Assembly (NCBI GenBank): GCA_025163595.1
Contig: CP104100.1
Span: forward strand, 248,001-312,000
Length of the DNA stretch: 64,000 bases
Source: Phaeobacter sp. G2
GTDB lineage: Bacteria > Pseudomonadota > Alphaproteobacteria > Rhodobacterales > Rhodobacteraceae
Direction: 5' to 3'
The position numbers and the translations under genes are program-made. Below the pieces are notes generated by a model. That model searched no databases. It saw nothing but the letters and a program-made list of their open reading frames with translations, and had not been told where the DNA came from. This document shows, piece by piece, positions 29,395 to 63,224 of this stretch (position 1 is its first letter; every line of letters begins with the position of its first letter).

Positions 29395-29490
29395 GGGGGG
29401 GGCTCCCGCGCGCCGGGCCTGTTTTACTGACGCAAAACCACCCGGCCCTTGGGCCCGGCGCCGCCCGTTCCGGGCGGCGCGCCAGCACCT
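29395..29490 (+). repeat. GC-rich palindromic intergenic element, copy A
   Basis: The element begins with eight Gs and CTCCCGC (29395-29409), includes TTGGGCCCGGCGCCG (29449-29463), and ends with a hairpin whose arms are CGCCGCCCG (29459-29467) and CGGGCGGCG (29471-29479). The same order of parts occurs near 60815, near 62968 and, inverted, near 63224, with different stem sequences. It lies between the convergent acyltransferase and cyclase genes. A separate CTGGTTTGA/TCAAACCAG hairpin precedes it at 29339-29361. Confidence 0.75.
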
Positions 29491-29546
29491 GCGGCAGGCG
29501 GTGCGCCTTGTGATCCCGTCTATTTTGGGCAACTTCAATTGCGCAG

Positions 29547-31235
29547 CTATTTGATGACTTTGGCGGGAACGGGCGGTGGGCCACCTGGTTCGGGCTGGGG
29601 CTTACGGTCTGGCGCGGTGAGGAAGGGCGCGAGAGCGTAGCTTTCGACTGGTTGGCTGACATTGTGCAGGCTCAAGGCGCCGAGAGGTGTGGCGTTTTGG
29701 CAGGAGCCTGGCAGCGAGTTCTGGCTGACCACGATCTGATGGCCCAGCGTCTTGCCATAGTCGCCAAGGCGGGCCGCGATATTGGCAGCCTGGCCAATGA
29801 CGGTGAAATCCAGCCGCTCCCGCGAGCCGACATTGCCATAGGTCACGGTGCCATAGGCAATACCGCTGGCACATTTGAGTTCAGGCAAGTCATGCTCGGC
29901 TGCGACCTCCGCCAGAGCCGGGACAATACTGCGGGCGGACTTCAGCGCCTGGGCACGGGCCTGATCTGCATCCTGCCCGCTCTCCTCGCCGGCGGGAAAC
30001 ACTGCCAGAACCGCGTCGCCGATGAATTTCAGCACCTCGCCGCCATTGTCATGCACGATGGTGGAGGCGGTGTCGAAAAACGCATTCAGCAGCTTGATAT
30101 AGTCATGCCGTCCCAGCTGCTCCTCCAGCAGGGTCGAGCCACGCAGATCGCAGAACATGATGGCGGCGTCGATCTCATCGCCTTCGCCGCGGCGGATCTT
30201 GCCGCCCAAAACCCGTTCACCGGTGCGTTTGCCCACATAGGTTTCCAGCAGGGATTGGGCGTTTTCGCGCTGCATGAAGACCTCATAGTAACGGGCCACC
30301 ACGGCGGAACATTCAAAGATCAGACCCAGATTGGCGGTAGAGAACCCATTCGGGTGATCCGAGGCCACGGTGAGCACATTGATTCGCCCATCCGAGAAGG
30401 GCAGCGGCATGGCGACATAATCCGTTGCCCCGGCGGCGCGCAGATCGCTGAGGATGGGGAAGGCATCGTCGCTGTCTTCGGTGTCGATGCGATGGCGCAC
30501 ACCCCCCAGACCTTTGGAGACATGGCGCAGCGGACTGGCATTATAAGAGGGGTGCTCGTAGATTTCATAGCTGGGCGCGTAGGTCGTCACCTCATCTGTG
30601 GCCTTCTGCCAGATGAAGTTTTTCCCCGCGATTTGTGGGTGCAAGGACCAGGCCAGTACCGATAGGCGCGACAGGTTCACGCCTTGCTCAAGCAGCTTTT
30701 CAGCAAAGGCCTTGGTAAACTCTGCTGGGGTGGGTAAAAAGGCAGCCTCACGCAGCAGCCAGTCGACCAGCGGACCGGAGATATTGCCATATTCAGGTGG
30801 CGCAATCTGATTCGAGCCAAGGTCGATCAGGGTGTCAGGATCAGAGACGAAGCCCACATGGCCTGCGATCTGCGAGGCCTCTGGCAGGGTGTTCTCATAG
30901 ATCCAGACGGCGTTGTCGACGCGACCATCCTCTAGTTTCAGGTCATGGTAGCAGGCGGTGCCTTTGAAGGGGCAGAAGGTCTGCAGACCAACTTTGTTGG
31001 AGAGATCCACCACGAGATCATCGCGCGGAATGTAGATGGTTGGCTGTACCCGGGTTTCATACATCACCCGCGCGCGGGTGCTTTTGGCCAAAAGGCAACC
31101 ACCGCGCCGCACCTGAACCTCGCCGCGCAGGGGCTCGACCAGAATGCCATAGCCATGATTTTGCGGGCCGCGATTCTGTGGCCCGGTACTGTTGGGGCCG
31201 GCACTGTTGGGGGGAGGCGGAACATGTGCGTTCAT
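29547..31235 (-). CDS. DUF427-class III nucleotidyl cyclase fusion protein
   Basis: The 562-residue protein starts with a Pro/Asn-rich leader (1-28). A DUF427-like domain (about 31-125; AKSTRARVMYETRVQPTIYI, FCPFKGTACYHD) is followed by a middle region (about 150-330) that I cannot name. The class III cyclase domain (about 350-520) has metal Asp363 in FCDLRGST, Asp407 in FIGDAV, purine-site Lys403 and a Thr in DFTVIG, a set favouring ATP. Transition-state Asn and Arg are in AANIAARL. No membrane segment is seen, so it should be cytoplasmic. The tail is Pro-rich. Confidence 0.85.
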   Translation of the reverse strand: MNAHVPPPPNSAGPNSTGPQNRGPQNHGYGILVEPLRGEVQVRRGGCLLAKSTRARVMYETRVQPTIYIPRDDLVVDLSNKVGLQTFCPFKGTACYHDLKLEDGRVDNAVWIYENTLPEASQIAGHVGFVSDPDTLIDLGSNQIAPPEYGNISGPLVDWLLREAAFLPTPAEFTKAFAEKLLEQGVNLSRLSVLAWSLHPQIAGKNFIWQKATDEVTTYAPSYEIYEHPSYNASPLRHVSKGLGGVRHRIDTEDSDDAFPILSDLRAAGATDYVAMPLPFSDGRINVLTVASDHPNGFSTANLGLIFECSAVVARYYEVFMQRENAQSLLETYVGKRTGERVLGGKIRRGEGDEIDAAIMFCDLRGSTLLEEQLGRHDYIKLLNAFFDTASTIVHDNGGEVLKFIGDAVLAVFPAGEESGQDADQARAQALKSARSIVPALAEVAAEHDLPELKCASGIAYGTVTYGNVGSRERLDFTVIGQAANIAARLGDYGKTLGHQIVVSQNSLPGSCQNATPLGALSLHNVSQPVESYALAPFLTAPDRKPQPEPGGPPPVPAKVIK

Positions 31236-31471
31236 TCGGGGCGATCCTCTTGTCCCCCCGACGTCCGAGAGGCCTGTTGAGCCCCGGACGCAACGAGAGA
31301 CACCCCAGGGCGCCTCCCACAGGGAGGCAGCCCTATATGTGGGGCTTTGGAGGTGAATATCCAGTGGCTGGAAGGATCATCTGTGCACAGGGGATGTGTT
31401 TTGCTGCCAAATCCACCCCGGCTCGCCAAGTTGTGACCAGCACTTGGCGCGCCCAGACACAGGCAGGCAGG
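31236..31471. promoter_or_regulatory. Region upstream of the cyclase fusion, with two inverted repeats
   Basis: Two perfect inverted repeats lie here: GCCTCCC-ACA-GGGAGGC at 31312-31328 and CGCCAAGT (31424-31431) with ACTTGGCG (31442-31449) around a 10-base spacer. They sit after the transmembrane winged-helix gene and before the cyclase gene on the minus strand. Neither is followed by a clear T-run, so operator or attenuator roles are as likely as termination. Confidence 0.4.
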
Positions 31472-32173
31472 TCAGACCATGCGGATGACGTCCTTGCTGA
31501 TCGCCAAGACATAGCCGCGTTTGGCAATGTTTTTGACCAGAAGTTCGCTCACCATCTGGTTGCCCAGAGTGTCGCGCAGCCGCTTGATCCGGGTGGCACC
31601 GGCGGCCTCTTCGCAATCGCTGCTGTGCTTGCCGGAAATCACCGCCTCGATCTCGGCGCCTGACAGCACGTCATCATCCATCCGGGCCTCGGCCAGGGCA
31701 GAGAGTGTCTCCATCGCGGCGGCGGTCAGTTTGAACCCCATGTTGTTGAGGTAGACAGTGTGTTCCTCGCGACTGATCAACAGCTCGGTCACCTGAATAC
31801 CCGATCGTTCGATCTGGGCCATGCGGCGGTTGAGCAGCAAGAGCATTGCCAGCACCACCAGAGCGACAATCATCATGGCGGTGGCAAAGACCAAGAGCAC
31901 AAAAATCACCACCCGGTAGCTGGCCAGGGTATCGGCAAAGGCGGTGCCGGATTGGGCCAGGATCTCCAGCAGTTTGATTTCGGCCTGGGCGGTCAGGTCG
32001 TTTTCGACAAAGAGCTGTTCCACCCGTGCGTTAAAGGCATTGGCATCGGGCAGCGCCAGCAAAAGCACCGTGCCGGTGATGGCCAACAGGGCGGCGATCA
32101 GGGCGATGCCAAAGGCGATGATACGGCTGCCTGCTGTGCGGGCCTCAGAAACGGAGAAAATAGGATCCGGCAT
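31472..32173 (-). CDS. Membrane-anchored winged-helix protein (two N-terminal TM helices)
   Basis: The 233-residue protein has hydrophobic helices at about 16-41 (IIAFGIALIAALLAITGTVL) and 87-113 (VVIFVLLVFATAMMIVALVV), separated by an extracytoplasmic loop of about 45 residues. The C-terminal part, about 135-225, looks like an OmpR-type winged helix (KLTAAAMETLSALAEAR, ATRIKRLRDTLGNQMV, KRGYVLAI). DNA binding at the C-terminus reverses the ToxR/CadC layout. AAGGAAGG precedes the ATG. The start overlaps the small secreted-protein gene by 29 bases. Confidence 0.7.
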   Translation of the reverse strand: MPDPIFSVSEARTAGSRIIAFGIALIAALLAITGTVLLLALPDANAFNARVEQLFVENDLTAQAEIKLLEILAQSGTAFADTLASYRVVIFVLLVFATAMMIVALVVLAMLLLLNRRMAQIERSGIQVTELLISREEHTVYLNNMGFKLTAAAMETLSALAEARMDDDVLSGAEIEAVISGKHSSDCEEAAGATRIKRLRDTLGNQMVSELLVKNIAKRGYVLAISKDVIRMV

Positions 32174-32438
32174 TGGCCTTCCTTTGTTGCAGGCCTTCGG
32201 GACCAAAGATCGCCATCACATTCAACAGGGTCCAGCCGGAGGCCGCAAGGCGGGACTGGATTTCCCCCTGCGCGGCGGCCTTGTTGCAGGCGCCCCGGAT
32301 CTGGATCACCCCGTAATGCAATTTCAGCGGGTTGTTCTGCTTGGCCTTGTAATCGGCATAGCAATCGGCGGCCTGTGCGGGCGCAATCTGCGCCAACAAA
32401 GCAAAGCATATCAGCGGTATGGCAAGGGCGTGTTTCAT
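32145..32438 (-). CDS. Small secreted protein of unknown function (97 aa)
   Basis: The ATG at 32438 opens with a signal peptide (MKHALAIPLICFALLAQIAPAQA). The mature part of about 74 residues has two cysteines (DCYADYKAKQ, RGACNKAAAQ) that could form a disulfide, and it ends GSYFLRF. The longer frame to 32675 lacks a sensible N-terminus. Similar small proteins occur in related genera but I know no function. It overlaps the membrane winged-helix gene by 29 bases, so the two are probably co-expressed. Confidence 0.7.
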   Translation of the reverse strand: MKHALAIPLICFALLAQIAPAQAADCYADYKAKQNNPLKLHYGVIQIRGACNKAAAQGEIQSRLAASGWTLLNVMAIFGPEGLQQRKANAGSYFLRF

Positions 32439-32689
32439 CTGCACACCCTGCCCTGAAAGCTGGATGAAATTCAATAACAACAGCCGTTTGTCCCATCGGT
32501 TATTCGATATCATGGCGCTGTTATTGCCTGTCTGAGCGGTGTTGGCCGAGTGTGAGGGTGCAGATTTTAATCCCGCCAACATCCCTGCCATTACCCCTGC
32601 CGACATCACGGCAGACATGGCTGAAACACAGCGGGTTGCCGCCCTATCAGGCGGCGCAACCAGACAGTAACACAATAGGAACCAATCCG

Positions 32690-33166
32690 ATGACCCAGAG
32701 CACTCAGCCTAAACAACACCGTAAATTCATCGCCGTCATTCTGGCCGCAGCACTGGCCATCACCGGGGCCTCCTCGGGGCCTGCGCGGGCCGGGGATGAC
32801 TTTGGAAAGGTGGTCGCAGGACTGGCGGTTTTGGGCATCCTGGGCGCGGCAATTCACGATCACAACACGCGGGACCACCGCCGTGGGACTGTGACCCGGC
32901 CGCATCGCCCAAATCCAACGCCGCATCCCCGTCCGCTGCCGCCGCGCTTTGGTCGCTATGATCTGCCGGCACAATGCGTGAAGTATTTTCCCAACTTCCG
33001 AAATGGCAAAACCCTGGTGGCGCGCGGTTGCCTGCAACGCAACTACAATCAGGTCCGTTCCCTGCCGCAAAGCTGCAAGGTGACCTTCTGGAACGGTCGG
33101 AAAAATCGCACCGCTTACAAGCCCCGGTGTCTGAACAAGCATGGCTACCGCCTGGTCAATCGCTAA
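32690..33166 (+). CDS. Secreted basic protein of unknown function (158 aa)
   Basis: The product has a signal peptide or N-terminal anchor (KFIAVILAAALAITGASSGPARA), then a small hydrophobic stretch (VVAGLAVLGILGAAI), a His/Arg/Pro-rich linker (HRPNPTPHPRPLPPRFG), and a C-terminal domain with four cysteines (PAQCVKYF, RGCLQRNY, QSCKVTF, PRCLNKHGY). AATAGGA precedes the ATG at 32690. It is divergent from the minus-strand trio ending in the cyclase fusion. The cysteine pattern suggests an oxidised periplasmic domain; the function is unknown. Confidence 0.68.
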   Translation: MTQSTQPKQHRKFIAVILAAALAITGASSGPARAGDDFGKVVAGLAVLGILGAAIHDHNTRDHRRGTVTRPHRPNPTPHPRPLPPRFGRYDLPAQCVKYFPNFRNGKTLVARGCLQRNYNQVRSLPQSCKVTFWNGRKNRTAYKPRCLNKHGYRLVNR

Positions 33167-33214
33167 GGGGCACGCTGAAAAGTGACCCAAGTGCAACACG
33201 TCGAGCAGACTTGA

Positions 33215-33238
33215 GGGGGCCTTGGCCCCCTTCTTTTT
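33215..33238 (+). terminator. Rho-independent terminator after the secreted-protein gene
   Basis: A 7-base GGGGGCC/GGCCCCC stem with a TT loop (33215-33230) is followed by TTCTTTTT. It ends the transcript of the gene at 32690. Confidence 0.85.
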
Positions 33239-33305
33239 GTGCCTCACAGCGGGTGGCTTGCGCCGAGAGCTTGCAAAACGGGATGATTTTGGGTCTGACA
33301 GGGAC

Positions 33306-33923
33306 ATGGAACAGCCAGACAACAGCCTAGAGATCGCCGCCCATGAAAAGGGCTATTTGAGGATTGCCGGAGTCGATGAGGTGGGCCGGGGGCCGCTTGC
33401 CGGACCCGTCACGGCGGCGGCCGTGGTCCTGGATCTGGCGCAGCTGCCTGAAGGGCTGAATGATTCCAAAAAGCTGAGCGCAAAAAAACGTGCCGCCCTC
33501 GCCGCAGAGATCTGGGCCAGTGCCGAGGTTTCCCTCGCAGAGGCCAGCGTTGAAGAGATTGATTCCATTAATATTCTCCGCGCCTCGCATCTGGCGATGG
33601 AGCGCGCGGTGGCGGCCTTGGACCCGCCCCCGGATTACCTGCTGATTGACGGCAATATGATCCCCCGCGACCTGACAATTGAGTCGGAAGCAGTGGTCAA
33701 AGGAGATGGCAAATCAGTCTCGATTGCAGCCGCCTCGATCGTGGCAAAAGAGGCACGCGATTTGCTCATGGTGGATTTGGCGCAACAGTTTCCAGGATAT
33801 GGATGGGAGCGCAACGCCGGATATCCTTCAAAGCAACACCGGGAGGCCTTGGTCGAATTGGGGGTGACACCACATCATCGGCGCTCATTCAAACCTGTAC
33901 ACAAGATATTGTATCAAGAGTGA
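33306..33923 (+). CDS. rnhB: Ribonuclease HII
   Basis: The 205-residue enzyme cleaves the RNA strand of RNA-DNA hybrids and single ribonucleotides in DNA. The catalytic acids are visible in [14 protein letters not shown] (Asp, Glu) and YLLIDGN (Asp), and [12 protein letters not shown] and KQHREAL are typical of RnhB. The ATG at 33306 is chosen on family length; the frame to 33222 includes the upstream terminator region. ccrM follows about 110 bases downstream. Confidence 0.95.
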
Positions 33924-35138
<1,215 letters not shown>

Positions 35139-35235
35139 CCCGCCCGACTGTTTTCAAACTTATCCAAGTTAACCACCGGTCCCCGAGCCTGCGTCACCCA
35201 ATGTGGCGCGGCCTGAACATGGGGACCGCACCTTG

Positions 35236-35260
35236 CCCCGCCTGTTAGGCGGGGTTTTTT
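35236..35260 (+). terminator. Rho-independent terminator after ccrM
   Basis: A 7-base CCCCGCC/GGCGGGG stem with a TGTTA loop (35236-35254) is followed by six Ts. It ends the ccrM transcript. Confidence 0.88.
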
Positions 35261-35335
35261 CGTGTTGCCTGCCAGCTGGAGGATGTATGTTGCCGAGGGA
35301 CTGCCTATCTAGGGCACAGAAATAGGGATTTCCTG

Positions 35336-36724
35336 ATGACTGACTCTGCTCTGATTCCGCCCAAGTCCAGATTGAATGATTTGTATCGGGTGACAGAGGT
35401 CGAAGACACTCCAGAGACGCAATATGTCTTGGCGGCGCTGGAAAACCACAAGCGTGAAGGCTTGGAACTGGCGGTGAAAGCGCGCTGGATTGCGATGACG
35501 ATCTTTGCGATTTTTGTCGTCTCAGTGCACCCGCATTTTGAAGTCGCCTATCACATCGGCATCATGGCGCTGCTGTGCCTGAATGGCTGGTTTATCCAGC
35601 GTGTCGGGCGTGTTGGGCGGTCGCGCCTGGAGCTGTTCCTGATCTTTGTTGATTTGTTTTTGATGACCCTGGGGATGATCGGGCCGAACCCGTTGAGCGT
35701 CGATGCGATGCCGCTTGCGATGCAGTACAGGTTAGACAATTTCATCTACTTCTTTGTGATCTTGGCCGTTGGCACCATGGCCTATTCCTGGCGTACGGTG
35801 ATTGCCATTGGGGTCTGGACCTTTGTGATGTGGCTGGGGGCGACGGCCCTGTCATGGTGGTTTTCCACGCCTGCTCCGGGGCTTACGGAGGCGGCGATTG
35901 ATGCTTTTGGCGCTGATTCCGATTTGTTACAATTCCTGGACCCCAACAGCTATGTTCCCCAGTTGCGCATACAGGAGGTCATTGTCTTTCTCATCGTTGC
36001 AATCACACTGGGGATATCGGCGCGCCGGACCAATACCTTGCTGTTGAATAACGCCGGGCTTGAACGTGAACGCGCCAACCTGTCGCGCTACTTTTCACCC
36101 AATGTGGTGGAGCAGCTGTCGCAAAACGATGAACCTTTGAAGCAGGTGAAGATCCAGAGTGTTGCGGTACTGTTCATCGATATCATCGGCTTTACGCGGC
36201 TTGCCGCCGGGCGGGATCCGCACCAGGTCATTGCCCTGCTGCGCGGGTTTCATGGCCGGATGGAGCGCGAGGTTTTTCGCCATAACGGCACGCTTGATAA
36301 ATATCTAGGCGATGGGTTGATGGCGACCTTTGGCACCCCTACCGCCGGAGAACGCGACGCGAGCAATGCCTTGGAATGTGCCTTGGCAATGCAAGAGGCC
36401 CTGGCGATCTGGAACCGGGAACGCCGCCGCATGGGCGAGCCGGAAATCCAAGCCGGGATTGGTATCCATTTTGGCGAAACCTTGCTGGGGGATATCGGGG
36501 CTAACCGTCTGGAATATGCGGTGATCGGGACAGCGGTGAATGTTGCAGCCCGGCTGGAAGAGATGACCCGGAGGCTAAAGACGCCAATTGTCATGAGCGA
36601 TGCCCTGCGGCTGCAAGCTCAGCTGGAACATCCCAACTCTGAGATAACCCAGGGCTTTGAATGCCACCCAGAGCAAGAAGTGCGCGGTCTGGATGAGACG
36701 ATGAAGGTTTGGGCAAAGCGCTAA
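35336..36724 (+). CDS. Membrane adenylate/guanylate cyclase, class III
   Basis: The 462-residue protein has about six N-terminal hydrophobic helices (residues about 45-225; AMTIFAIFVVSV, LFLIFVDLFLMTLGMIG, VIVFLIVAITLGI). A short linker (RERANLSRYFSPNVVEQL) leads to a C-terminal cyclase domain from about 270. The metal Asp residues are in FIDIIGFT and YLGDGLMA, with a purine-site Lys in TLDKYLGD and Asn/Arg in VNVAARLEEM. The position usually held by Thr or Asp before VIG is Ala (EYAVIG), so base choice is uncertain. It seems to be transcribed alone. Confidence 0.87.
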   Translation: MTDSALIPPKSRLNDLYRVTEVEDTPETQYVLAALENHKREGLELAVKARWIAMTIFAIFVVSVHPHFEVAYHIGIMALLCLNGWFIQRVGRVGRSRLELFLIFVDLFLMTLGMIGPNPLSVDAMPLAMQYRLDNFIYFFVILAVGTMAYSWRTVIAIGVWTFVMWLGATALSWWFSTPAPGLTEAAIDAFGADSDLLQFLDPNSYVPQLRIQEVIVFLIVAITLGISARRTNTLLLNNAGLERERANLSRYFSPNVVEQLSQNDEPLKQVKIQSVAVLFIDIIGFTRLAAGRDPHQVIALLRGFHGRMEREVFRHNGTLDKYLGDGLMATFGTPTAGERDASNALECALAMQEALAIWNRERRRMGEPEIQAGIGIHFGETLLGDIGANRLEYAVIGTAVNVAARLEEMTRRLKTPIVMSDALRLQAQLEHPNSEITQGFECHPEQEVRGLDETMKVWAKR

Positions 36725-36779
36725 TTGACTTGCAGCCATGGGGTGCGCAGTAAGTTAATGTAATACCGCAACTGAGAAA

Positions 36780-37003
36780 CCCCATGTGTCTAATTGGCTG
36801 CTTTCACGGCGCCAATGAAAATTCCCTTGGTTGTGTGAGTGGTGTTAAGCTTTTTTAAGGGTTGCATGCGTCAGTATGCCATTGTTGCAGTGCAGCAAGG
36901 GAGTTGTCTGTCCAAACTCACTTCCGACCTGTGCCTCATTGAGACCCTTGCCAAGGGTCTTTTAAAGAACACTGACCCTTGGGCCGGTCAGTGTTCTTTT
37001 TCC
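36780..37003 (+). ncRNA. Candidate small RNA ending in two tandem terminators
   Basis: The 330 bases between the cyclase and alkB hold no credible protein gene but contain two intrinsic terminators. The first has an 8-base stem AGACCCTT/AAGGGTCT (36942-36960) and a T-run. The second has a 13-base stem AAGAACACTGACC/GGTCAGTGTTCTT (36965-36998) and a T-run. The cyclase stop is more than 200 bases upstream, so a short transcript may end here. The 5' end is a guess. Both could instead be a long 3' UTR of the cyclase, and the second could also serve alkB. Confidence 0.35.
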
Positions 37004-37012
37004 GTTTCAGAC

Positions 37013-37036
37013 CCTGGCACCCTGGCACCCTGGCAG
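37013..37036 (+). repeat. Three-copy 8-base tandem repeat (CCTGGCAC)
   Basis: CCTGGCAC occurs at 37013-37020 and 37021-37028, and CCTGGCAG at 37029-37036, just after the alkB stop on the minus strand. It is a short low-complexity tract with no assigned role. Confidence 0.7.
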
Positions 37037-37053
37037 GATGAAGGGGTTTTCTC

Positions 37054-38193: not shown

Positions 38194-38320
38194 TCAGTCT
38201 CCAAAATCAGTGGCCTAAATCAGGCCTTGTGAGATGGGCTGAGCCTAGGCCCGTTTTATGCGAAACCCAAGGGGGCTGAGCAGCGACCAAAGGAGACAGG
38301 GTGCAGGGCTCTGCCTTGCC

Positions 38321-54426: not shown

Positions 54427-54523
54427 CACGACAGGTCCTTTAAGAATGAAAACGCCGGGTGGTGACCCGGCGCATGTAATACTGTTGTTTTGATCTCTGT
54501 TCCAGAGCCGTCGTCGCGGCCTG

Positions 54524-55018
54524 TCAGAGGTTCTTGTCAGCGATGCGCAACTGGCGGGCGCGTGACAGGATTGCGTCCTCGACGGCGCGGGTGGTCGATG
54601 CGCTGACAGGGCGGCCGCCCTTTGCCTGCAGCGAGACATTCAGTGATCGCGCGTCCAGGGCCGGGTCTTTGATGTGAACCGTGGCGCGATAGGAGCGGCC
54701 GCTGCCAGGAGGTGTGCCATAGCCGGTTACGATGACGCCGGTGAAGGGGTCAACCGATTGCACTGGCAGGAATTCCAGCACATCCAGGGTGGCATTCCAC
54801 AGGTAGCGGTTCACCTGGACCTTCTGATCCGGCGTGCCGCCGAACAGATCCCAGATCGATGACTTGCTGCTTTGGGCAGTATCAATGTCATTGTTGAACT
54901 CTTGGGGGGCTGTCCCACGGGGACCGGTTCTGTCAGAGCGCCCGCCACAGGCTGCTAATCCAAGGCACACAACTCCGATAAGAGTTGTCTTTACTATCTT
55001 ATGCAGTGTCATCGTCAC
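54524..55018 (-). CDS. DUF3576 lipoprotein
   Basis: The 164-residue protein has a lipoprotein signal with lipobox AAC (LGLAACGG) and the DUF3576 body ([62 protein letters not shown]). The function is unknown; it is conserved in alphaproteobacteria and presumably sits in the outer or inner membrane. ATGs at 55018 or 55012 are both possible starts. leuS starts about 100 bases after its stop, with a GCCGGGT/ACCCGGC hairpin in between (about 54450-54470). Confidence 0.85.
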
Positions 55019-55405
55019 TCCCGGCGCCAGTATCTTGCCGCACTCCTACCGTATCGACGGGTTGCGGAGCAAGGGGTTTAGCGATCTGCGCCAGCTTCCA
55101 GCGAATCGTGTGGGCGGACAGTTATATATGGGGCACAGCGAATTACGGGCAGTCTGGTTATCATGGGAGCTGCGCGGATTGTTGTTGATTAACGCGCTGC
55201 ACAGAGAGCAAATCAGGCGGATTCAGAGGGGTAAGAGCCGGGGCAGGCTCGAGACTGTGGCAAAGCTGCACCATCCGAAAGAGCAATGCTGGCTGGCAGT
55301 TGGGCCGCTCTTGCCAAAACGGGGGTGAAAAAGCGAAACCCCTTGTCATACCCACACCGGATTCCCCGGTTTGGGCATCAGAATTGAAAACCGAGGGAAA
55401 AATCG
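55019..55405. promoter_or_regulatory. Region between the DUF3576 gene and the porin gene
   Basis: This stretch contains no gene that I support. It must hold the porin promoter and 5' leader. The porin is expected to be strongly expressed, but no unambiguous -35/-10 pair can be named. GAGGGAAAAATCG immediately before the ATG contains the likely ribosome-binding site. Confidence 0.4.
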
Positions 55406-56518
55406 ATGAAAAAGGTTCTCTTCGCGACTACCGCGCTGATCGCCACTGCCGGCATGGCAGCTGCTGACGTCCGTCTGTCCGGTTACGGCCGCTTTGGTCT
55501 GGACTACAACTCCGCCAACGAGCGTGTTGCTGGCGTTTCCGAAACCAACATCACCAGCCGTCTGCGTCTGCAGGTCGACATGTCCACCGAATCTGACGGC
55601 GGCATTGGCTTCAACGCTCGCGTTCGTATGCAGTCCGAAAGCCGTGACGGCAACCCAGGTCAAAGTGCTCCTGGTGGCGACAATGGCTTCAACGGCGCAC
55701 GTTTTGGCGTGACCTACGGCGGCCTGGCTGTCAACGTTGGCAACATCATCGGTGCTGTTGAAAACGCACCTGGTCTGTATGTAACTGGCGCTCGTTCCGC
55801 TGGTACAGGCATCGACGGCCAAGGCTTCCACTCGCTGGCCATCAAATCTTCTAGCTTCTCCGCTGCTTCCATCGCAGCCGGTACAGCTGGTTCCGTTGGC
55901 ACTGGCTTTAACTGGGATGCATATTCCTCCGACGGCATGGGCGCAAACGGCATCGAAGCTCTGTACTCGGTTGGTGGTTTCACTGGCCACATCTCCTACA
56001 GCCAGCGTAACGGTGGTCTCGTTCTGGGTGAAGCAAACGGCGAACAGCGCACCGCAGTCATGGTGACATACTCGTTCTCCGATTACTATGTCACCGCTGC
56101 TTACCAAGCTGCTGACAACACTGCCACCTACACAACTTCCGGCGGTGTCGTTATCGACGCAAACGATGGCCTGTACTTCATCGCTGCTGGTGGTGACTTC
56201 GGTCAGTTCGGTGCAAAAATCGCTTACGGTTCCACCGACGTTGCTGACTCCGTTACCCTGGAAGGTAGCATGGACATCGGCGCAGCTTCCAACCTGGTTC
56301 TCTGGGTGAACAACTCCGACGTTGACGCAGCTCTGCTGGCTGATACCACCGTTACCGGTGCAACCACTGTTGGTGCAAACGCTCGCGCAACCGACGGCAC
56401 CTCCTTCGGCATCAACTACCAGTACGACCTGGGTGGCGGCGCTACCTTTGTTGCTGGCTATGTTGACGAAGCAGACGACGACAACTCGTTCCAGGCTGGT
56501 GTATACTTCAGCTTCTAA
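55406..56518 (+). CDS. Outer-membrane porin
   Basis: The 370-residue precursor has a signal peptide (MKKVLFATTALIATAGMAAA) and then alternating hydrophobic and polar residues typical of a beta-barrel (DVRLSGYGRFGLDYN at the start, FQAGVYFSF with a terminal Phe at the end). These match the Rhodobacter porin type (Gram-negative porin). Codon choice favours C/T-ending codons more strongly than in neighbours, consistent with high expression. It should admit small hydrophilic solutes through the outer membrane. A terminator follows. Confidence 0.95.
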   Translation: MKKVLFATTALIATAGMAAADVRLSGYGRFGLDYNSANERVAGVSETNITSRLRLQVDMSTESDGGIGFNARVRMQSESRDGNPGQSAPGGDNGFNGARFGVTYGGLAVNVGNIIGAVENAPGLYVTGARSAGTGIDGQGFHSLAIKSSSFSAASIAAGTAGSVGTGFNWDAYSSDGMGANGIEALYSVGGFTGHISYSQRNGGLVLGEANGEQRTAVMVTYSFSDYYVTAAYQAADNTATYTTSGGVVIDANDGLYFIAAGGDFGQFGAKIAYGSTDVADSVTLEGSMDIGAASNLVLWVNNSDVDAALLADTTVTGATTVGANARATDGTSFGINYQYDLGGGATFVAGYVDEADDDNSFQAGVYFSF

Positions 56519-56545
56519 GCTGAACTTACGCTTAGCGTGAATTGG

Positions 56546-56576
56546 GGGCGGGCTCTTAACAGAGCTCGCCCTTTTC
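56546..56576 (+). terminator. Rho-independent terminator after the porin gene
   Basis: An 11-base stem with one G-T pair (GGGCGGGCTCT at 56546-56556 with AGAGCTCGCCC at 56561-56571) is followed by TTTT. It lies 28 bases after the porin stop. Confidence 0.85.
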
Positions 56577-56639
56577 GTTTGGCTCTTAACATTTGCCGCC
56601 AAACAGTGTTGTTCTGGCGTCAAAACCGGAGGACGCTAA

Positions 56640-57302
56640 ATGTCGCTGCAAGAAATAAAAAACCGTATCACCGCGGCAGAGGTTGCTGCAGATCGTCCCG
56701 CAGGATCGGTGACGCTGATTGCGGTGTCCAAGGTCCAGCCAAATACACGGGTGGCAGCGGTGCTAGACGAAGGTCAGCGCTGCTTTGGTGAAAACCGGGT
56801 GCAAGAGGCCCTGGGCAAATGGCCAGATTTTTCCCAAACCTATAGCGGGCTGGATCTGCATCTGATTGGCCCCTTGCAAAGCAACAAGGCGCGTCAGGCG
56901 ATGGAGCTGTTCAACGCCATTCATACGCTGGATCGCCCAAAGCTGGCCAAAAGTATCGCACGGCTGGCGCAGGAGCTGGGCCACTGCCCTGATCTGTTCA
57001 TTCAGGTCAATACCGGAGCCGAACCACAAAAGGCAGGCATCCTGCCGGAGGAGGCCGATGCCTTTGTCGCCGAGTGCCGTGGGCTGGATCTACCGGTCAA
57101 AGGCCTGATGTGTATCCCGCCGGTAGATGAGGCCGCAGCCGATCATTTCACCCAGCTGGCAGAAATTGCCGCCCGCAATGGGCTGGCGGGGCTGTCCATG
57201 GGAATGAGCGGCGATTTCGAGCAGGCCATCGCCCATGGGGCAACCCATGTGCGGGTTGGCTCAGCCATCTTTGGCGCCCGCGCTTATGATACGCAAGCCT
57301 GA
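56640..57302 (+). CDS. YggS/ProSC-family PLP homeostasis protein
   Basis: The 220-residue protein has the TIM-barrel PLP-binding fold of YggS, with the PLP lysine in LIAVSKVQPNT and HLIGPLQSNKARQAMEL, MGMSGDFEQAIAHGATHVRVGSAIFG near the end. It helps control free pyridoxal phosphate and amino-acid homeostasis. GGAGGAC precedes the ATG. Its stop faces the L,D-transpeptidase gene 6 bases away. Confidence 0.93.
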   Translation: MSLQEIKNRITAAEVAADRPAGSVTLIAVSKVQPNTRVAAVLDEGQRCFGENRVQEALGKWPDFSQTYSGLDLHLIGPLQSNKARQAMELFNAIHTLDRPKLAKSIARLAQELGHCPDLFIQVNTGAEPQKAGILPEEADAFVAECRGLDLPVKGLMCIPPVDEAAADHFTQLAEIAARNGLAGLSMGMSGDFEQAIAHGATHVRVGSAIFGARAYDTQA

Positions 57303-57308
57303 CCGAGC

Positions 57309-57830
57309 CTAAGCCAGATCTGGGACAATCACCCGGCTGCCCGGCTCTACGCGGGCGGCCAACCACTGTAGATCACGCCGATCAAAGGCGATGCAGCCCT
57401 CGGTCGGATATCCCGGACGGCGCCATTGGTGGATAAATATGGCAGAGCCCTTGCCGGGGGTGGCATTGGGCCAGTTCCAATCCAGTATCAGCACCAGATC
57501 ATACAAAGGGTCGGCCCGGCGCAGGTGCTCGTGGCTGAATCCATAAGGCGCTGTGATCAGGGTGTTGTAGTGGCTGTCGTGACTGTCATCCGACCACAGA
57601 TCACCGGGGCCAATCGGCCGGGCCCAGGCATTTGGTCTGGCCATGCGGTCCGGGCGGTACAGCATCCCGACAATGTGGTGCAGCCCGGTTGGCGTGGCCC
57701 CGTCGCCTTCGCGCTTGTTGCGCGAGATGCCGCCCTTGCCGATGCTGCAGGGCAACAGCCGTCCGGCAAAGCGCAGACCGCGCTTGGTCAGCACCAGATC
57801 GGCTGCAGAATAGGGCGGTGTGGTGGTCAC
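57309..57830 (-). CDS. L,D-transpeptidase family protein (YkuD domain)
   Basis: The 173-residue protein contains a YkuD catalytic motif: His134 in FIHQWRRPG and Cys146 in TEGCIAFD, with the variant TEGC instead of SHGC. No signal peptide is clear, so the protein may start elsewhere or be a cytoplasmic relative. The family crosslinks peptidoglycan or attaches proteins to it. Its start overlaps ribA by 4 bases. Confidence 0.8.
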   Translation of the reverse strand: MTTTPPYSAADLVLTKRGLRFAGRLLPCSIGKGGISRNKREGDGATPTGLHHIVGMLYRPDRMARPNAWARPIGPGDLWSDDSHDSHYNTLITAPYGFSHEHLRRADPLYDLVLILDWNWPNATPGKGSAIFIHQWRRPGYPTEGCIAFDRRDLQWLAARVEPGSRVIVPDLA

Positions 57831-58915
57831 AACATGTGACCCGATTTGGCGGCCTTGGTGGCCAGATACTGCGCGTTGAAGGCATTTTCGCCAACTTTAA
57901 GCGCCACCCGCTCGGTGACCTTGATGCCGGTTTTTTCCATCATCGCGATCTTGTTTGGGTTGTTGGTCAACAGACGCACCTGGGAAAACCCCAGCTCATT
58001 CAGAATGGCAGAGCCAAGGCGGAAATCGCGTTCGTCATCTTCAAAGCCCAGGCGATGGTTGGCTTCCACCGTGTCAAACCCTTGATCTTGCAGGGAATAG
58101 GCGCGCATCTTGTTGGCCAGACCAATGCCGCGCCCCTCTTGATTGAGGTAAAGCAACACGCCGCTGCCCGTCGCCCCCATCTGCGCCAGCGCCGCGTTGA
58201 GCTGCGGGCCGCAGTCGCATTTCAGCGATCCCAGAACATCGCCAGTGAAACAGGCCGAATGCAGCCGTGCCAGAACTGGCTGGTGTCGGTCAGGCCGGCC
58301 CACTTCGATGGCGTAGTGTTCTTCGGCGCCATCTTCGGGGCGAAACACATGCAGCCGACCAGCCTCGGCAGCCTGCATCGGCAGGCGGGCGGCAGCGACG
58401 GCATGCAGCGGCGAGCTTTGGCTCATCAGCGGTTCAGCGGCAGCCTGCGGCAACAGGGTGAGCCCATGGCTGACGGCAAACTGCGCGCCACTCTCCAGCG
58501 GCACCAACAATGCAGCGGGCAGCAGCCGCGCCGATTTCACTAGAGCAATGGCCAGACGGTGCAGGGTGGCGGAGCCCTCACGGGCGCTGACCAGGGGGCC
58601 TTTCATCGGCGCCTTCAGATCATCCGCGGGATCTGCCAGCGCCTGGATCCAGCCCAGATCTGCTGCCTCTGGCAGGTGGATGCGGGCGGTATCGCCATCA
58701 TAGGCGCGGGCCTTCAGGGTCTCGGCGCGGCGTGCGGTCAGGGCCAGGGTGGCCTCTCCCAGCGCCTGCATTTCGGTCAAGCGGTCCTGTGACAGGCTCT
58801 CGGCGGCGATCGCTAGGGCGGCTTGCCCCTCCTCAATCAGGACGACTGGCAGCCCCATGCGCAGATCTACCCGCGCGCGGGCCAAGAGTTCGATCATGGT
58901 GGGCATCAGGCTCAT
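57827..58915 (-). CDS. ribA: GTP cyclohydrolase II with a degenerate RibB-like N-terminal region
   Basis: The 362-residue protein converts GTP to 2,5-diamino-6-ribosylamino-pyrimidinone phosphate, the first riboflavin step. Zinc ligands Cys222, Cys233 and Cys235 (ACFTGDVLGSLKCDCGPQL), the YLNQEGRGIGLANKMRAY catalytic segment and RLLTNNPNKI are intact from about residue 185 on. The first 150 residues resemble DHBP synthase (RibB), but the DDExREnEGDL acid motif is missing (VVLIEEGQAALAIAAE). The start at 58915 (MSLMPTMIEL) is preferred; 58906 and 58897 are alternatives. Confidence 0.9.
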   Translation of the reverse strand: MSLMPTMIELLARARVDLRMGLPVVLIEEGQAALAIAAESLSQDRLTEMQALGEATLALTARRAETLKARAYDGDTARIHLPEAADLGWIQALADPADDLKAPMKGPLVSAREGSATLHRLAIALVKSARLLPAALLVPLESGAQFAVSHGLTLLPQAAAEPLMSQSSPLHAVAAARLPMQAAEAGRLHVFRPEDGAEEHYAIEVGRPDRHQPVLARLHSACFTGDVLGSLKCDCGPQLNAALAQMGATGSGVLLYLNQEGRGIGLANKMRAYSLQDQGFDTVEANHRLGFEDDERDFRLGSAILNELGFSQVRLLTNNPNKIAMMEKTGIKVTERVALKVGENAFNAQYLATKAAKSGHML

Positions 58916-59101
58916 GCGGCAAATCCAGCATTGGGTGACATAAATACCGGCCTTTCCTAGGCTCAATTTCAACAGAAGTGAAATAATTCCTTTGCTACGG
59001 ACACGACGGCGTGAATGTTTTGCAGCATATCTTGTCCTTTGCAGGGGGGAGGCGCATCTGTCAGTCACGCAAACAGGATCTAGAGGCGGGAGACCAGAAC
59101 C

Positions 59102-59788
59102 ATGGCGCAACTGAAGAAAATTCTACTGGTGGATGATGACGAGGATCTGCGCGAGGCTCTGAGTGAACAGCTGATTATGACCGAGGACTTTGATGTCTTT
59201 GAGGCCGAAAATGGCCAAGGCGCCATGGAGCGCGTGAAAGAGGCGCTGTATGATCTGGTGATCCTGGATGTGGGCTTGCCCGACACCGATGGTCGTGAGC
59301 TGTGCCGCCTGATGCGCAAGCAAGGCGTCAAGGCGCCGATCCTGATGCTGACAGGCCATGACAGCGATTCAGACACCATTCTGGGACTGGATGCCGGTGC
59401 CAATGACTATGTCTCGAAACCTTTCAAATTTCCGGTGCTATTGGCGCGTATCCGCGCCCAATTGCGCCAGCATGAACAATCCGAAGATGCGGTTTTTGTG
59501 CTTGGGCCCTATACGTTCAAGCCGGCGATGAAGATGTTGCTGACCGAGGATGAGCGCAAGATCCGGCTGACCGAGAAAGAGACCAATATCCTGAAATTCC
59601 TCTATCGCTCCACCGATGGGGTGGTGGCGCGGGATGTGCTGCTGCATGAGGTCTGGGGCTATAACGCCGGTGTCACCACGCATACCTTGGAAACCCATAT
59701 CTATCGGCTGCGCCAAAAGATCGAACCGGATCCCTCCAATGCCCGTATCCTGGTAACGGAATCCGGTGGCTATCGTCTGATCAGCTAG
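59102..59788 (+). CDS. cenR: OmpR-type response regulator, CenR-like
   Basis: The 228-residue regulator has a receiver domain with Asp56 (VILDVGLPDTDG) and Lys in SKPFKFPVL, and a winged helix ending ILVTESGGYRLIS. The linker LLARIRAQLRQHEQSEDAVFVLGPYTFKP and the C-terminal THTLETHIYRLRQKIEPDP closely resemble CenR of Caulobacter and Rhodobacter, an essential envelope regulator. No kinase gene is adjacent, as is common for cenR. It is divergent from ribA and is followed by a terminator. Function is by resemblance. Confidence 0.75.
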   Translation: MAQLKKILLVDDDEDLREALSEQLIMTEDFDVFEAENGQGAMERVKEALYDLVILDVGLPDTDGRELCRLMRKQGVKAPILMLTGHDSDSDTILGLDAGANDYVSKPFKFPVLLARIRAQLRQHEQSEDAVFVLGPYTFKPAMKMLLTEDERKIRLTEKETNILKFLYRSTDGVVARDVLLHEVWGYNAGVTTHTLETHIYRLRQKIEPDPSNARILVTESGGYRLIS

Positions 59789-59853
59789 CGCCTGTCTTTT
59801 TTCCCTCATCCCGCGCATGTCCGGGTTATGATGTGCACCTCCCTGTTGGACTG

Positions 59854-59882
59854 GGCCGGGCTTTATGCCCGGCCTTTTTTTT
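59854..59882 (+). terminator. Rho-independent terminator after the CenR-like gene
   Basis: An 8-base GGCCGGGC/GCCCGGCC stem (59854-59874) with a TTTAT loop is followed by eight Ts. Confidence 0.92.
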
Positions 59883-60011
59883 GCGGCTTTTGGCTCTGTG
59901 CGTCCCCCAGGGGGGGCAAACTGGATTTCATAAAATCCCGTCTCTGCTCTCTTCTCCGGTTAGCAGCACTGTGATAGCGAGTGGCATACCCCTGCCAATC
60001 GGAGCATCTAC

Positions 60012-60800
60012 ATGGCTTTTTCCCTTGCGACCTGGAACATTAACTCTGTCCGCCTGCGCGAAGAGCTGGTGCAAAAACTTTTGCGCGAGGAAGGCCCGGA
60101 TGTGCTGTGTCTGCAGGAGTGTAAAAGCCCGGTGGACAAGATCCCGACACAGGGTTTTGCCGATTTGGGCTACCCCTATATGGTTGCACGTGGGCAGAAG
60201 GGATATAACGGCGTCGCCATTTTATCGCGCTTGCCCATCGTGGAAGCCGGGGCTGAGGATTTTGCCAATCTCGGCCATGCGCGCCATATCGCGGGGCGGC
60301 TGGAAAATGGCGTGACCGTGCATAATTTCTATGTGCCTGCAGGCGGGGACAAGCCTGACCGGGAAGTGAATGAGAAATTTGGTCAGAAGCTGGATTACCT
60401 GAGCGAGATGCGGGACTGGTTTAAGGCGGAGAAGCCTGAAAAATCCATTTTGGTTGGCGATCTCAATATCGCGCCGCGCGAAGATGACGTCTGGGACCAC
60501 AAGAAAATGCTGAAGATCGTCAGCCACACGCCGGTGGAGGTGGATCTGCTGGCAGAGGTGCAGGAGGCAGGAGGCTGGGCCGATGTGACCCGCGCGGATA
60601 TTCCTGAGGGGCTGCTGTATAGCTGGTGGAGCTACCGGGCCAAGGATTGGGACGCGGCTGACAAAGGGCGCCGTTTGGATCACGTCTGGGCCACCGGGGA
60701 CATTCGTCAGGCAGCGCATTCCAGCCGGGTTCTGCGCGCCGCCCGGGGCTGGGAAAAACCCAGTGACCACGCGCCGGTTTTTGCCACCTTTGATCTGTAA
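60012..60800 (+). CDS. xth: Exodeoxyribonuclease III (AP endonuclease)
   Basis: The 262-residue enzyme of the endonuclease/exonuclease/phosphatase fold repairs abasic sites and 3' blocks. Catalytic residues are visible in LCLQECKSP (Glu36), LVGDLNIAP, RLDHVWATGD and SDHAPVF. The start MAFSLATWNINSVRLR is family-typical. A GC-rich palindromic element follows the stop by 14 bases and may shape the end of its transcript. Confidence 0.94.
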   Translation: MAFSLATWNINSVRLREELVQKLLREEGPDVLCLQECKSPVDKIPTQGFADLGYPYMVARGQKGYNGVAILSRLPIVEAGAEDFANLGHARHIAGRLENGVTVHNFYVPAGGDKPDREVNEKFGQKLDYLSEMRDWFKAEKPEKSILVGDLNIAPREDDVWDHKKMLKIVSHTPVEVDLLAEVQEAGGWADVTRADIPEGLLYSWWSYRAKDWDAADKGRRLDHVWATGDIRQAAHSSRVLRAARGWEKPSDHAPVFATFDL

Positions 60801-60814
60801 CATTCTTGAGGAAC

Positions 60815-60900
60815 GGGGGGGGCTCCCGCCCGTCGTTTGGGCATCACAGATGCCCGCCTCCCGTTGGGCCCGGCGCCGCGCCAGGGCGCGGCGCGGGTGC
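60815..60900 (+). repeat. GC-rich palindromic intergenic element, copy B
   Basis: Eight Gs and CTCCCGC (60815-60829) are identical to copy A over 15 bases. GGGCATCACAGATGCCC forms an inner hairpin, TTGGGCCCGGCGCCGC follows at 60864-60879, and a terminal hairpin has arms GCGCCGCGCC (60873-60882) and GGCGCGGCGC (60885-60894). It lies between xth and the thioredoxin gene, which read the same way. Confidence 0.75.
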
Positions 60901-61040
60901 GCTGTGTTGAGGTCGGACACCAAGCGTCTTAGGCTGGCGAGAAATGACAGTGGGACCAGGGCGGAGAGAACTCCACTCTTGGTTTCTGTGTTCCAGCGCT
61001 CCATATAGGGGCCAAGCTTCAAACGGAGAAGATTGAGACA

Positions 61041-61973
61041 ATGGATATTATTGGCGGAGCGGGCACCGCAGCCCCCGCAGGTGATGTAATCAAGGACGTC
61101 GGTGAGGCGACCTTTATGCAGGATGTGATCGAGGCCTCGATGCAGGCGCCGGTCATCGTTGATTTCTGGGCGCCCTGGTGTGGTCCTTGCAAGACGCTTG
61201 GACCCGCCTTGGAGGCGGTTGTGACCAAGGCCAAGGGCGCGGTCACCATGGCCAAGGTAAATGTCGATGAAAACCAGCGCCTGGCCCAGGCTTTGTCGCA
61301 GCAGGGGTTGCCGCTGCAATCGATCCCAACTGTGGTTGCCTTTGTGGAAGGGCGCCCCATTGATATGTTTCAGGGCAATGTGCCGCCGAGCGAAATCGAA
61401 GCCTTTGTCAACAAGGCTATCGAGGCGGGTGGTGGCAGTGCTGACGGTGGCCTGAGCGAAGCCCTGGACGTTGCCGAGCAAATGCTGGCAGATGGTGACG
61501 TCGCGGATGCGGCGCAGACCTTTGCAGCAATTATTGGCGAAGATGACAAAAGCGCCGCGGCCTATGGTGGTCTGGCGCGGGCGCATATCGCGCTGGAAGA
61601 TCTGGACCAGGCCGAAGCGGTTCTGAATGGCGCCCCGGCAGAGATTGCCGATGCTGCCGAGATCGAGGCGGCGCGGGCGCAGATCGAACTCGCGCGACAG
61701 GCGGAAAACGCCGGCCCCGTTGCCGAACTGGCAGCCAAAGTTGAGGCCAGCCCAGAGGATCTGGACGCGCGCTTTGAATTGGCGCAGGCGCTGCATGCCG
61801 CGGGCGATGCCGAGGCGGCGGTGACTGAGCTGCTGGAGCTGTTCCGCCGTGATCGTGAGTGGAACGACGGCGCTGCCAAGGCGCAGCTTTTCACTATCTT
61901 TGACGCGCTGCAGCCCAATGATCCGGTGGTTTTGAACGGTCGCCGCAAGCTGAGCTCATTGATATTTGCCTAA
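61041..61973 (+). CDS. Thioredoxin-domain/TPR protein (CnoX/YbbN-like)
   Basis: The 310-residue protein has an N-terminal thioredoxin domain with WCGPC at 46-50 and a C-terminal helical, tetratricopeptide-like region (residues about 130-290) with Ala-rich repeats. YbbN/CnoX members are chaperone-redoxins that hold oxidised proteins for GroEL or DnaK; the WCGPC here suggests that redox activity is retained. The family is cytoplasmic. The next gene starts 27 bases after its stop. Confidence 0.9.
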   Translation: MDIIGGAGTAAPAGDVIKDVGEATFMQDVIEASMQAPVIVDFWAPWCGPCKTLGPALEAVVTKAKGAVTMAKVNVDENQRLAQALSQQGLPLQSIPTVVAFVEGRPIDMFQGNVPPSEIEAFVNKAIEAGGGSADGGLSEALDVAEQMLADGDVADAAQTFAAIIGEDDKSAAAYGGLARAHIALEDLDQAEAVLNGAPAEIADAAEIEAARAQIELARQAENAGPVAELAAKVEASPEDLDARFELAQALHAAGDAEAAVTELLELFRRDREWNDGAAKAQLFTIFDALQPNDPVVLNGRRKLSSLIFA

Positions 61974-62000
61974 TTGGGTCTCTGCCCTACAGTAATAGCC

Positions 62001-62645
62001 ATGATGCATATCGCAGATCTGCCGGACACTATTGCTGTCTTTCCACTGCCCCGGGCGATTTTATTGCCCCGGGCCCGCCTGCCGTTGCATATCTTTGAAC
62101 CGCGCTATTTGCAGATGTTCGAAGATGCGCTGAAGACCCCGGAGCGCCTGATTGGCATGATCCAGCCCTGCGCAGGCTCTGGGGATGCTGAGGCGCTGCA
62201 GGCCATTGGCTGCGCTGGCCGGGTGACGCAGTTCTCCGAGACCGAAGATGGCCGCTACATGGTCACCCTGTCGGGCCTGTCCAGGTTTCGTATTCTGGGT
62301 GAAGTCAGCGGCTTTAGCCCCTACCGGCGCTGTGACGTCAGCTGGACCGGGTTTGACCGCGATCTTGGCACTGCTGCTGAGACGGATACCGAGTTTGACC
62401 GTGCCGGTTTTCTGGCTTTGCTGGAACGGCTCTTTGTGGCCCAGGGGCTGTCAACGGATTGGGATTCTCTGAAAGAGGCCGAAGATGAGCTGCTGATCAA
62501 CTCCCTGTCGATGTTGTTGGAGTTCGAGCCAGAAGACAAACAGGCCTTGCTAGAGGCGCCTTGCCTTGCCACAAGGCGAAAAACTCTGGTGACATTGATC
62601 GAGTTTTCCCTAAGGGGCGGCGCAGATGAGGATATCTTGCAATGA
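62001..62645 (+). CDS. Lon N-terminal-domain (LON substrate-binding) protein
   Basis: The 214-residue protein consists of a Lon-N (PUA-like) domain: [32 protein letters not shown], then [25 protein letters not shown]. It has no ATPase or protease part. Such stand-alone proteins are common in alphaproteobacteria and their role is unclear. ATG at 62001 or 62004 may start it; the frame to 61974 gives no better N-terminus. It overlaps the Trm112 gene by 4 bases. Confidence 0.88.
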
Positions 62646-62830
62646 GTGATACAAAACCGGTGACCTTTGATCGCCGCATGTTGGAGGCTTTGGTGTGTCC
62701 ACAAACCCAAGGCACTCTGGAGTATGACGCTGAGGCGCAGGAATTGCTGTCCAGAGCGGCCAATCTGGCCTTTCCAATCCGCAATGGCATTCCGGTTATG
62801 CTGGCGGATGAAGCCCGCGCCATTGAGTAG
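62642..62830 (+). CDS. Trm112 family protein
   Basis: The 62-residue protein has the short Trm112/YcaR fold: [19 protein letters not shown] and [21 protein letters not shown]. Eukaryotic Trm112 activates methyltransferases; bacterial members are little known. Only one cysteine of the usual zinc site is present, so metal binding is doubtful. It is coupled to the Lon-N gene. Confidence 0.88.
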
Positions 62831-62967
62831 GCCTACAGCAGCTCTTTCCTGTTGTTCTCGGCTAGATCGCTCTGGTCGTTCTGTTCTGGGATGAGTTCTG
62901 TCGTTTGAAAACTGCCTTGGTTCAGGTTGTAGCAAACGCGGCTGTTGCATGGTTTAGCAGAAAAAAA

Positions 62968-63055
62968 GGGGGGGCTTCCGCGCCCGCAGGTGCCCCTTTG
63001 GGGCGCCTTGGCGGCCTTGGGCCCGGGCTGTGCTTACGCACAGCGAGCGCGCAGT
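62968..63055 (+). repeat. GC-rich palindromic intergenic element, copy C
   Basis: GGGGGGGCTTCCGC (62968-62981) opens the element, with a GGTGCCCC/GGGGCGCC inner hairpin, TTGGGCCCGGG at 63017-63027, and a GCTGTGC/GCACAGC terminal hairpin (63027-63044). It differs from copies A and B in sequence but keeps their order of parts. It lies in the 410 bases between the Trm112 gene and the hydroxylase gene, which otherwise contain no gene I can support. Confidence 0.7.
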
Positions 63056-63129
63056 TTGGACCGTTGAGGCTTTTGACGATCTATCGGCGGTGGTGTCGGC
63101 GGTCAGGGTGGCTTTTAGCAATACCTGTA

Positions 63130-63224
63130 ATACCCGCGATGCCGCGCCTTGCCGTTAGGCAAGGCGCTGGGCCCAACCAGATCGCAACACCGCAGGTGTT
63201 GACGCAATGGGCGGGAGCCCCCCC
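63130..63224 (-). repeat. GC-rich palindromic intergenic element, copy D (inverted)
   Basis: Read on the minus strand from 63224: GGGGGGGCTCCCGCCC, a CACCTGCGGTG hairpin, TTGGGCCCAGCGCC, and a terminal hairpin with arms GCGCCTTGCC (63144-63153) and GGCAAGGCGC (63158-63167). It is in inverted orientation relative to copy C, so the two form a head-to-head pair spanning 62968-63224. Confidence 0.7.

Follow-up and report, generated by a model that had tools for sequence, protein, structure and literature searches.

The repetitive extragenic palindromes (REPs) of Escherichia coli are recognised as a folded single strand bearing an AA-GC mismatch and a GTAG tag (PMC8266576), and REPs are described as lying mostly between co-directional and convergent genes, in pairs (PMC3733652). 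Here we describe a palindromic repeat of Phaeobacter sp. G2, four copies of which lie in a 64,000-nucleotide stretch of contig CP104100.1 (positions 248,001 to 312,000, hereafter the window; window position equals contig position minus 248000). These copies belong to a dispersed family, about 84 bp long with two hairpins and so far found in Rhodobacteraceae. We put the probability at roughly one half that it is a new REP-like family whose selected form is the folded single-stranded DNA (ssDNA) opposite the element's run of Gs.

Architecture, distribution and known counterparts

A first-pass annotation had placed the copies at 29395, 60815, 62968 and, inverted, 63224, each with the same order of parts. 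The sequence check bore this out, as it did the pairing of each terminal stem quoted there; for copy 60815 a listing of longest stems chose a chance longer one, the quoted stem being still visible in the folding output. As delimited by the covariance model described below, copy 1 spans 29394..29482 on the plus strand between convergent genes and consists of the G-run with CTCCCGC (29395-29409), an inner hairpin, TTGGGCCC (29449-29456) and a terminal hairpin (29458-29480). Copy 2 (60814..60896, plus strand) lies between an exonuclease III-like and a thioredoxin-like gene, both on the plus strand, directly 3' of the former and starting 13 nucleotides past its stop in this genome. Copies 3 (62966..63048, plus strand) and 4 (63142..63226, minus strand) face each other as left and right members of a pair, flanked by a Trm112p-like gene (plus) and a flavin adenine dinucleotide (FAD)-binding-domain gene (minus). 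Two regions, that of copy 29395 and that of the pair 62968/63224, are therefore between convergent genes, as first described, and copy 60815 is between co-directional ones. Read along the folded strand, the order is a hairpin rich in GC whose loop is often GNNA, then GGSCCAA, a long hairpin with an AA/GC mismatch at its base, and GGGAGCCCCCC.

Thirty-five copies in this genome fit the strict motif GGGGGCTYCCGC-18..46-TTGGGCC and none fits the reversed-motif control. Taken singly and with 2 mismatches allowed, the boxes are not above chance in the window, the first giving 7 matches against a shuffle mean of 10.4 and the second 43 against 36.4. After two strict copies with atypical terminal hairpins (contig positions 432703 and 2006838) had been set aside, the other 33 served to build a covariance model of 84 positions and two hairpins, which found 74 copies in the genome at E<=0.1, 65 of them below 1e-3. 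In the 39 non-strict copies CTCCCGC, TTGGG and the GC-rich hairpin after TTGGG are constant; variation is seen in the G-run and in the CC that follows TTGGG, which amends the first description. It is amended also for the inner pairing region, an imperfect hairpin carrying conserved mismatches. At the base of this hairpin one pair flips between C-G (22 of 33 copies) and G-C (9 of 33), and 26 of the 33 have a C.C mismatch at the adjacent position. Pairing of the G-run with the CC behind TTGGG into an obligatory outer helix was ruled out, several copies having TTGGGGG, TTGGGCA or no G-run. So was a terminal hairpin repeated in its own right, since all 21 genome matches to its consensus (20 hairpins, one matched on both strands) lie within model matches. 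Among the 185 of 223 copies with a terminal stem of at least 6, on which the tail statistics rest, a GANTC methylation site occurs in 2 and was also rejected as part of the element. A search for dif gave 0 matches.

Within the genus the element was found in all 10 genomes searched, with 8 to 36 strict copies each. Across 295 family genomes, our own included, the strict motif occurred in 18 and the model at E<=1e-5 in 24; this search scored 15 candidates per genome and thus undercounts copies per genome (15 instead of 74 in our own). There was no match in any of 380 alphaproteobacterial genomes outside the family, nor in any of 284 genomes of a partly overlapping sample of the phylum. A scan of named genomes gave at least 119 loci, the matches listed comprising Rhodobacteraceae, one record labelled "Alphaproteobacteria bacterium" and two loci labelled Nocardioides marinus. 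The matched flanking proteins of these two (strain DP1N28-1) are 76-84% identical to those of the present genome, and the contigs are probably mislabelled or contaminated. Three stretches of viral contigs were matched, and copy 2 had matches in five plasmid records, from Ruegeria, Leisingera and Tritonibacter. The covariance model and the scan of genome and relatives proposed at first thus yielded both further copies and, as shown below, covarying pairs; the outcome named as refuting, only four copies and no covariation, did not occur.

With the GTAG REPs and bacterial interspersed mosaic elements (BIMEs) of E. coli and relatives, which are associated with TnpA-REP (RAYT), the element shares dispersed imperfect palindromes outside genes, location at gene ends, frequent facing pairs and a single folded strand (PMC8266576, PMC3733652). 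The AA/GC mismatch on the folded strand resembles the AA-GC of E. coli REP (PMC8266576). Seen on the plus strand, it appears as TT in 38 of the 39 non-strict copies and GC in 72 of all 74; strict copies carry TT and GC by definition of the motif, and the model that found the 39 was built from strict copies. A GTAG REP, in contrast, is a single palindrome of 20-40 bp, and the very variable inner stems and the boxes GCTCCCGC and TTGGG belong to the present element only. The CGTC REPs of Alphaproteobacteria are alike in having no known dedicated transposase, in their convergent and 3'-end location and in their paired units, but they are smaller, with an unpaired CGTC end tag, a stem of 8-9 bp, a loop of 4-5 bases and a CCA tail (PMC3733652). 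The main text of that paper names no Roseobacter, Ruegeria, Rhodobacter or Dinoroseobacter (PMC3733652).

Integron attC sites also act as a single folded strand, an imperfect hairpin with a variable inner part (PMC8266576). Unlike in attC, the left arm of the element is not the complementary R'' box (RYYYAAC), and no cassette genes were seen between copies. The right box GTTGGGC fits GTTRRRY, the R' consensus of attC, but in 9 of 33 copies its first base is C, the partner base having changed along with it. The left arm CCCGC opposite TTGGG keeps G.T and C.T mispairs in all 33 strict copies, as the motif demands, and in this departs from attC. Rhizobium-specific intergenic mosaic elements (RIME) comprise two large palindromes. 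Compared by description only, they are similar as repeated intergenic alphaproteobacterial elements with conserved sequence and secondary structure (PMC2573895), whereas the present family was found only in Rhodobacteraceae. No Rfam family matched the window copies at gathering scores; sub-threshold matches occurred in five copy loci only, the best (E 0.0052) to a CRISPR repeat model. The earlier statement that no named family matches accordingly holds for Rfam at gathering scores and for the literature searched, and no further.

Compensatory changes and the folded strand

Folded singly with RNA parameters, two of the four window copies are unexceptional (z of -0.11 and -0.18, against -2.24 and -2.68 for the others), and the case was therefore built on comparison. 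Across the 33 own copies of the model, 79.8% of paired cells were complementary, against 68.7% in shuffled and at most 42.2% in slid alignments. Cells changed on both sides numbered 100 against 38.8 in shuffles, and the covariation score was 0.272 against 0.101, neither being reached in any of 500 shuffles. The number of further pair types was not above shuffles (207/500). Orthologous sites gave the same picture. In the exonuclease III-thioredoxin (xth-trx) gap the element is present in 11 of 12 genus genomes, and in the Trm112p-FAD gap the facing pair is present in 9 of 12, both members being absent from three; one of the nine (G006) has a single shared terminal hairpin there. The xth-trx alignment used 9 of the 11 copies, leaving out the same-species assembly (G321) and a copy with an internal duplication (G007), and the two facing-pair alignments used 8 of 9 each, again without G321. 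Pairs changed on both sides numbered 7, 5 and 5 in these three alignments, against at most 2 in slid ones, and were reached in 0, 0 and 8 of 500 shuffles; further pair types in two of them were not above shuffles (63/500 and 349/500). The both-side changes among the 33 own copies and at the three orthologous sites support the selection on structure first suggested, and chance or base composition is ruled out by the reversed-motif control together with the shuffled and slid pairing controls. The G007 duplication is a short tandem one of the right arm. The one genome without the element at xth-trx (G001) has no full copy there and retains a G-rich, TTGCGC-like remnant, perhaps left by an internal deletion.

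Which strand folds can be read from the mismatches, written here with the G-run strand first, so that A.C on the plus strand is G.T or G.U on the other. Among isolated apical-stem mismatches of 208 distinct inner modules, A.C was the most frequent (51), followed by C.T (30), A.G (13), A.A (10), C.C (6), G.T (5), T.T (3) and G.G (1); 1 of 224 gathered copies was unparsed, and several inner modules cut at an internal TTGGG were kept in the counts. The excess of A.C over G.T persisted in 127 cluster representatives (29 vs 5) and in other genera alone (21 vs 1). We therefore attribute the folded form to the strand opposite the G-run. Consistent with this, 183 of the 208 inner modules folded better as the minus strand with RNA parameters, as did 114 of 127 cores with DNA parameters. 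Terminal tetraloops were of the form c(GNNA)g on the minus strand in 51 of 80 and on the plus strand in none, and inner ones GNNA in 39 of 69 on minus and 1 on plus. The motif d(cGNNAg) forms a stable class of DNA tetraloop. The third base of the minus-strand terminal GNNA loops is C or T in 44 of 51, so these loops are not of the RNA type GNRA. The preference also held between two plus-strand genes (++), to both of which the folded strand is antisense, with A.C 9 and G.T 1 and the minus strand more stable in 27, the plus strand in 1, of 30.

These features bear on two alternatives. A duplex or cruciform site of the kind suggested for REP/BIME, at which gyrase or an architectural protein would relieve supercoils where genes converge, would fit the convergent location and the facing pairs, one of them with a shared terminal hairpin (4129509/4129574); yet strand-specific wobble pairs and loops and freely changing stem sequences are left unexplained, and we consider it distinctly unlikely. 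A family of independent small RNAs transcribed from the minus strand would account for covariation with minus-strand wobble pairs, but we regard it as very improbable: there is no conserved promoter-like outside sequence, information falling below 0.3 bit past the second base after the terminal hairpin, the loops are mostly GNYA and not GNRA, and no Rfam model matched at gathering score.

Several observations weigh against a REP-like element that folds as ssDNA opposite the G-run. Between two minus-strand genes (--) the strand excess was not seen (A.C 3, G.T 2). Terminal hairpins showed little asymmetry (A.C 9 vs G.T 5, with equal mean energies), their tetraloops in other genera were GNNA in only 6 of 19, and inner triloops showed no GNA asymmetry (16 vs 15). 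DNA folding of the whole element favoured the minus strand in one of the four window copies, and G.U pairs with a preferred strand would equally fit a minus-strand RNA. GTAG was found within the end windows in no more than 2 of the 74 copies and GTAG or CGTC at the element end in at most 5 of 74; the same upper bound applies to CGTC itself, which in many inner hairpins sits in the paired part. The Y1 transposase domain PF01797 was absent from our genome (0 matches) and present in only 5 of 34 other carriers, once as a fragment. Given the lack of recurrent tags, the greater length and the absence of PF01797 from this genome, we call the element REP-like and not a REP.

Placement, fork orientation and hairpin exchange

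Genes were called with a custom codon-score script, not a standard gene finder, and contexts were counted for 71 of the 74 own copies, three that overlap a called open reading frame being excluded. Fifty-six copies were convergent, 7 lay in ++, 6 in -- and 2 in divergent contexts; the corresponding numbers at loci elsewhere were 82, 24, 22 and 3, with 19 undecided. Counted by gap, convergent genes flank 46 of the 60 that bear an element, compared with 34 of 189 (18%) intergenic regions of at least 100 nucleotides in 464 kb (p 6e-23). Such placement would be expected of an RNA 3'-end device, in which transcribed hairpins terminate transcription or block 3' exonucleases and facing pairs serve both convergent transcripts. 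The close spacing of copy 2 to the exonuclease III-like stop, the element's position before the following gene in 11 of the 12 genomes and covariation as in structured RNA all speak for such a device. However, orientation relative to transcription is random in tandem contexts (7 vs 6 own copies, 24 vs 22 elsewhere), and the same strand folds where it is antisense to both genes. An intrinsic-terminator U-run directly after the GC hairpin was not found in the plus direction, and no T-run follows the terminal hairpin (T 8-34% over the first ten positions); in the minus direction T-richness is limited to the first 3-4 positions past the C-run (plus-strand A 55, 51, 44 and 36%). Ordinary terminators are moreover present in the window, since a classical hairpin with T8 lies after a match to the small RNA SorX. 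The RNA device accounts best for the convergent placement, but not for the strand and orientation data, and we hold it to be possible but rather unlikely. Of the alternatives "REP-like or RNA elements" left by the first-pass annotation, the random orientation in tandem contexts and the strand preference in the antisense context favour the REP-like one and make RNA less likely.

Orientation in this genome follows the replication fork instead. GC skew places the origin at about 0.17-0.19 Mb and the terminus at about 2.55-2.65 Mb, and 38 of 46 single copies are oriented with the fork (p 9e-6), among them 27 of 33 in convergent, 5 of 6 in ++ and 4 of 5 in -- contexts. Since concordance is found in all three of these contexts, it is the fork, not gene direction, that sets orientation. 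In Roseobacter sp. MED193 the effect is weak, 15 of 16 copies being concordant with the best two arcs, which 227 of 5000 shuffles equal. Alternatively, the bias may reflect avoidance of the better-folding strand on the lagging-strand template, where hairpins are unstable. Copies on our chromosome thin out away from the origin (25, 18, 16, 6 and 7 per 0.4 Mb of origin distance). Density peaks near the origin, and no model match falls between 2.16 and 2.95 Mb, about 0.8 Mb around the terminus. All 13 pairs within 400 nucleotides (26 members) are facing, and that at 4129509/4129574 has a single common terminal hairpin. In 8 of the 13, such as those at contig positions 98043/98254 and 1896704/1896836, one member is without a G-run and the other keeps all or most of it.

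Among the loci compared, 48 of the 74 own copies have at least one flanking gene (at least 40% identity) at an element-bearing locus elsewhere, with partners that include Leisingera, Tritonibacter and Falsiruegeria; for 3 of the 48 the sole partner is the same-species assembly. The majority of orthologous copies show gradual divergence. Inner hairpins are swapped between sites. At site 1840002 the copies of our genome, of MED193 and of Pseudophaeobacter sp. EL27 share their terminal hairpin while the inner ones are unrelated. The inner hairpin of EL27 recurs unchanged at a different site in another species, where it stands beside a different terminal hairpin. The own copies at contig positions 308814 and 460533 have identical inner hairpins, and one genus genome (G008) has two copies with the same changed base, the first being orthologous by its flanks and the second by order. 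The own copies at 424247 and 3934411 are near-identical over the whole element with unrelated flanks. No transposase was among 10 neighbouring proteins examined for mobility genes. Between the own copy at contig C6 16893 and L208, from another strain, the terminal loop differs, TGG against CCA, as if inverted between perfect arms.

In 20 of 185 copies (e.g. L016, L021, L024 and L062) the terminal hairpin has downstream of it GCTGAGA and a hairpin with GGCAG..CTGCC. On the opposite strand this becomes a hairpin and TCTCAGC, frequently with a T-rich segment behind them, and may be the opposing gene's terminator; a tighter version of this pattern had no match in the window. The custom gene call places a predicted protein with DUF427 (NTP_transf_9) and guanylate cyclase domains (29547-31235, minus strand). 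Rfam places the SorX match at 59808-59880 (plus), a flavin mononucleotide (FMN) riboswitch at 17544-17749 (minus) and a thiamine pyrophosphate (TPP) riboswitch at 13639-13735 (plus).

Spread and persistence of the element

As a tentative proposal, the family may be of the REP type but lack a resident transposase, its inner cassettes being exchanged between sites as folded ssDNA at replication forks, with the fork setting orientation and copies at convergent gene ends kept as boundaries at the DNA level. A strand-specific activity on folded ssDNA, of the kind that TnpA-REP exerts on E. coli REP, or template exchange at the fork would spread and homogenise the hairpins. Copies would persist where they lie because gene ends benefit from a compact hairpin as a boundary, or at the least are not harmed by it. 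The comparisons themselves establish the family, structural selection with a strand preference, retention at orthologous sites, preference for convergent gene ends, swaps of inner hairpins and, in this genome, fork-linked orientation; action as ssDNA is what we infer from them.

The spread of REP-like repeats and the reasons for their persistence are unsettled questions, on which this family offers certain advantages: its sequence alone indicates the folded strand, orthologous sites are found occupied and empty, inner hairpins are swapped within constant flanks, and orientation is linked to the fork. The carriers belong to a family of mostly marine bacteria, and with culturable members in Phaeobacter, Leisingera and Tritonibacter the spread of the element, its homogenisation and any influence on neighbouring genes are directly testable.

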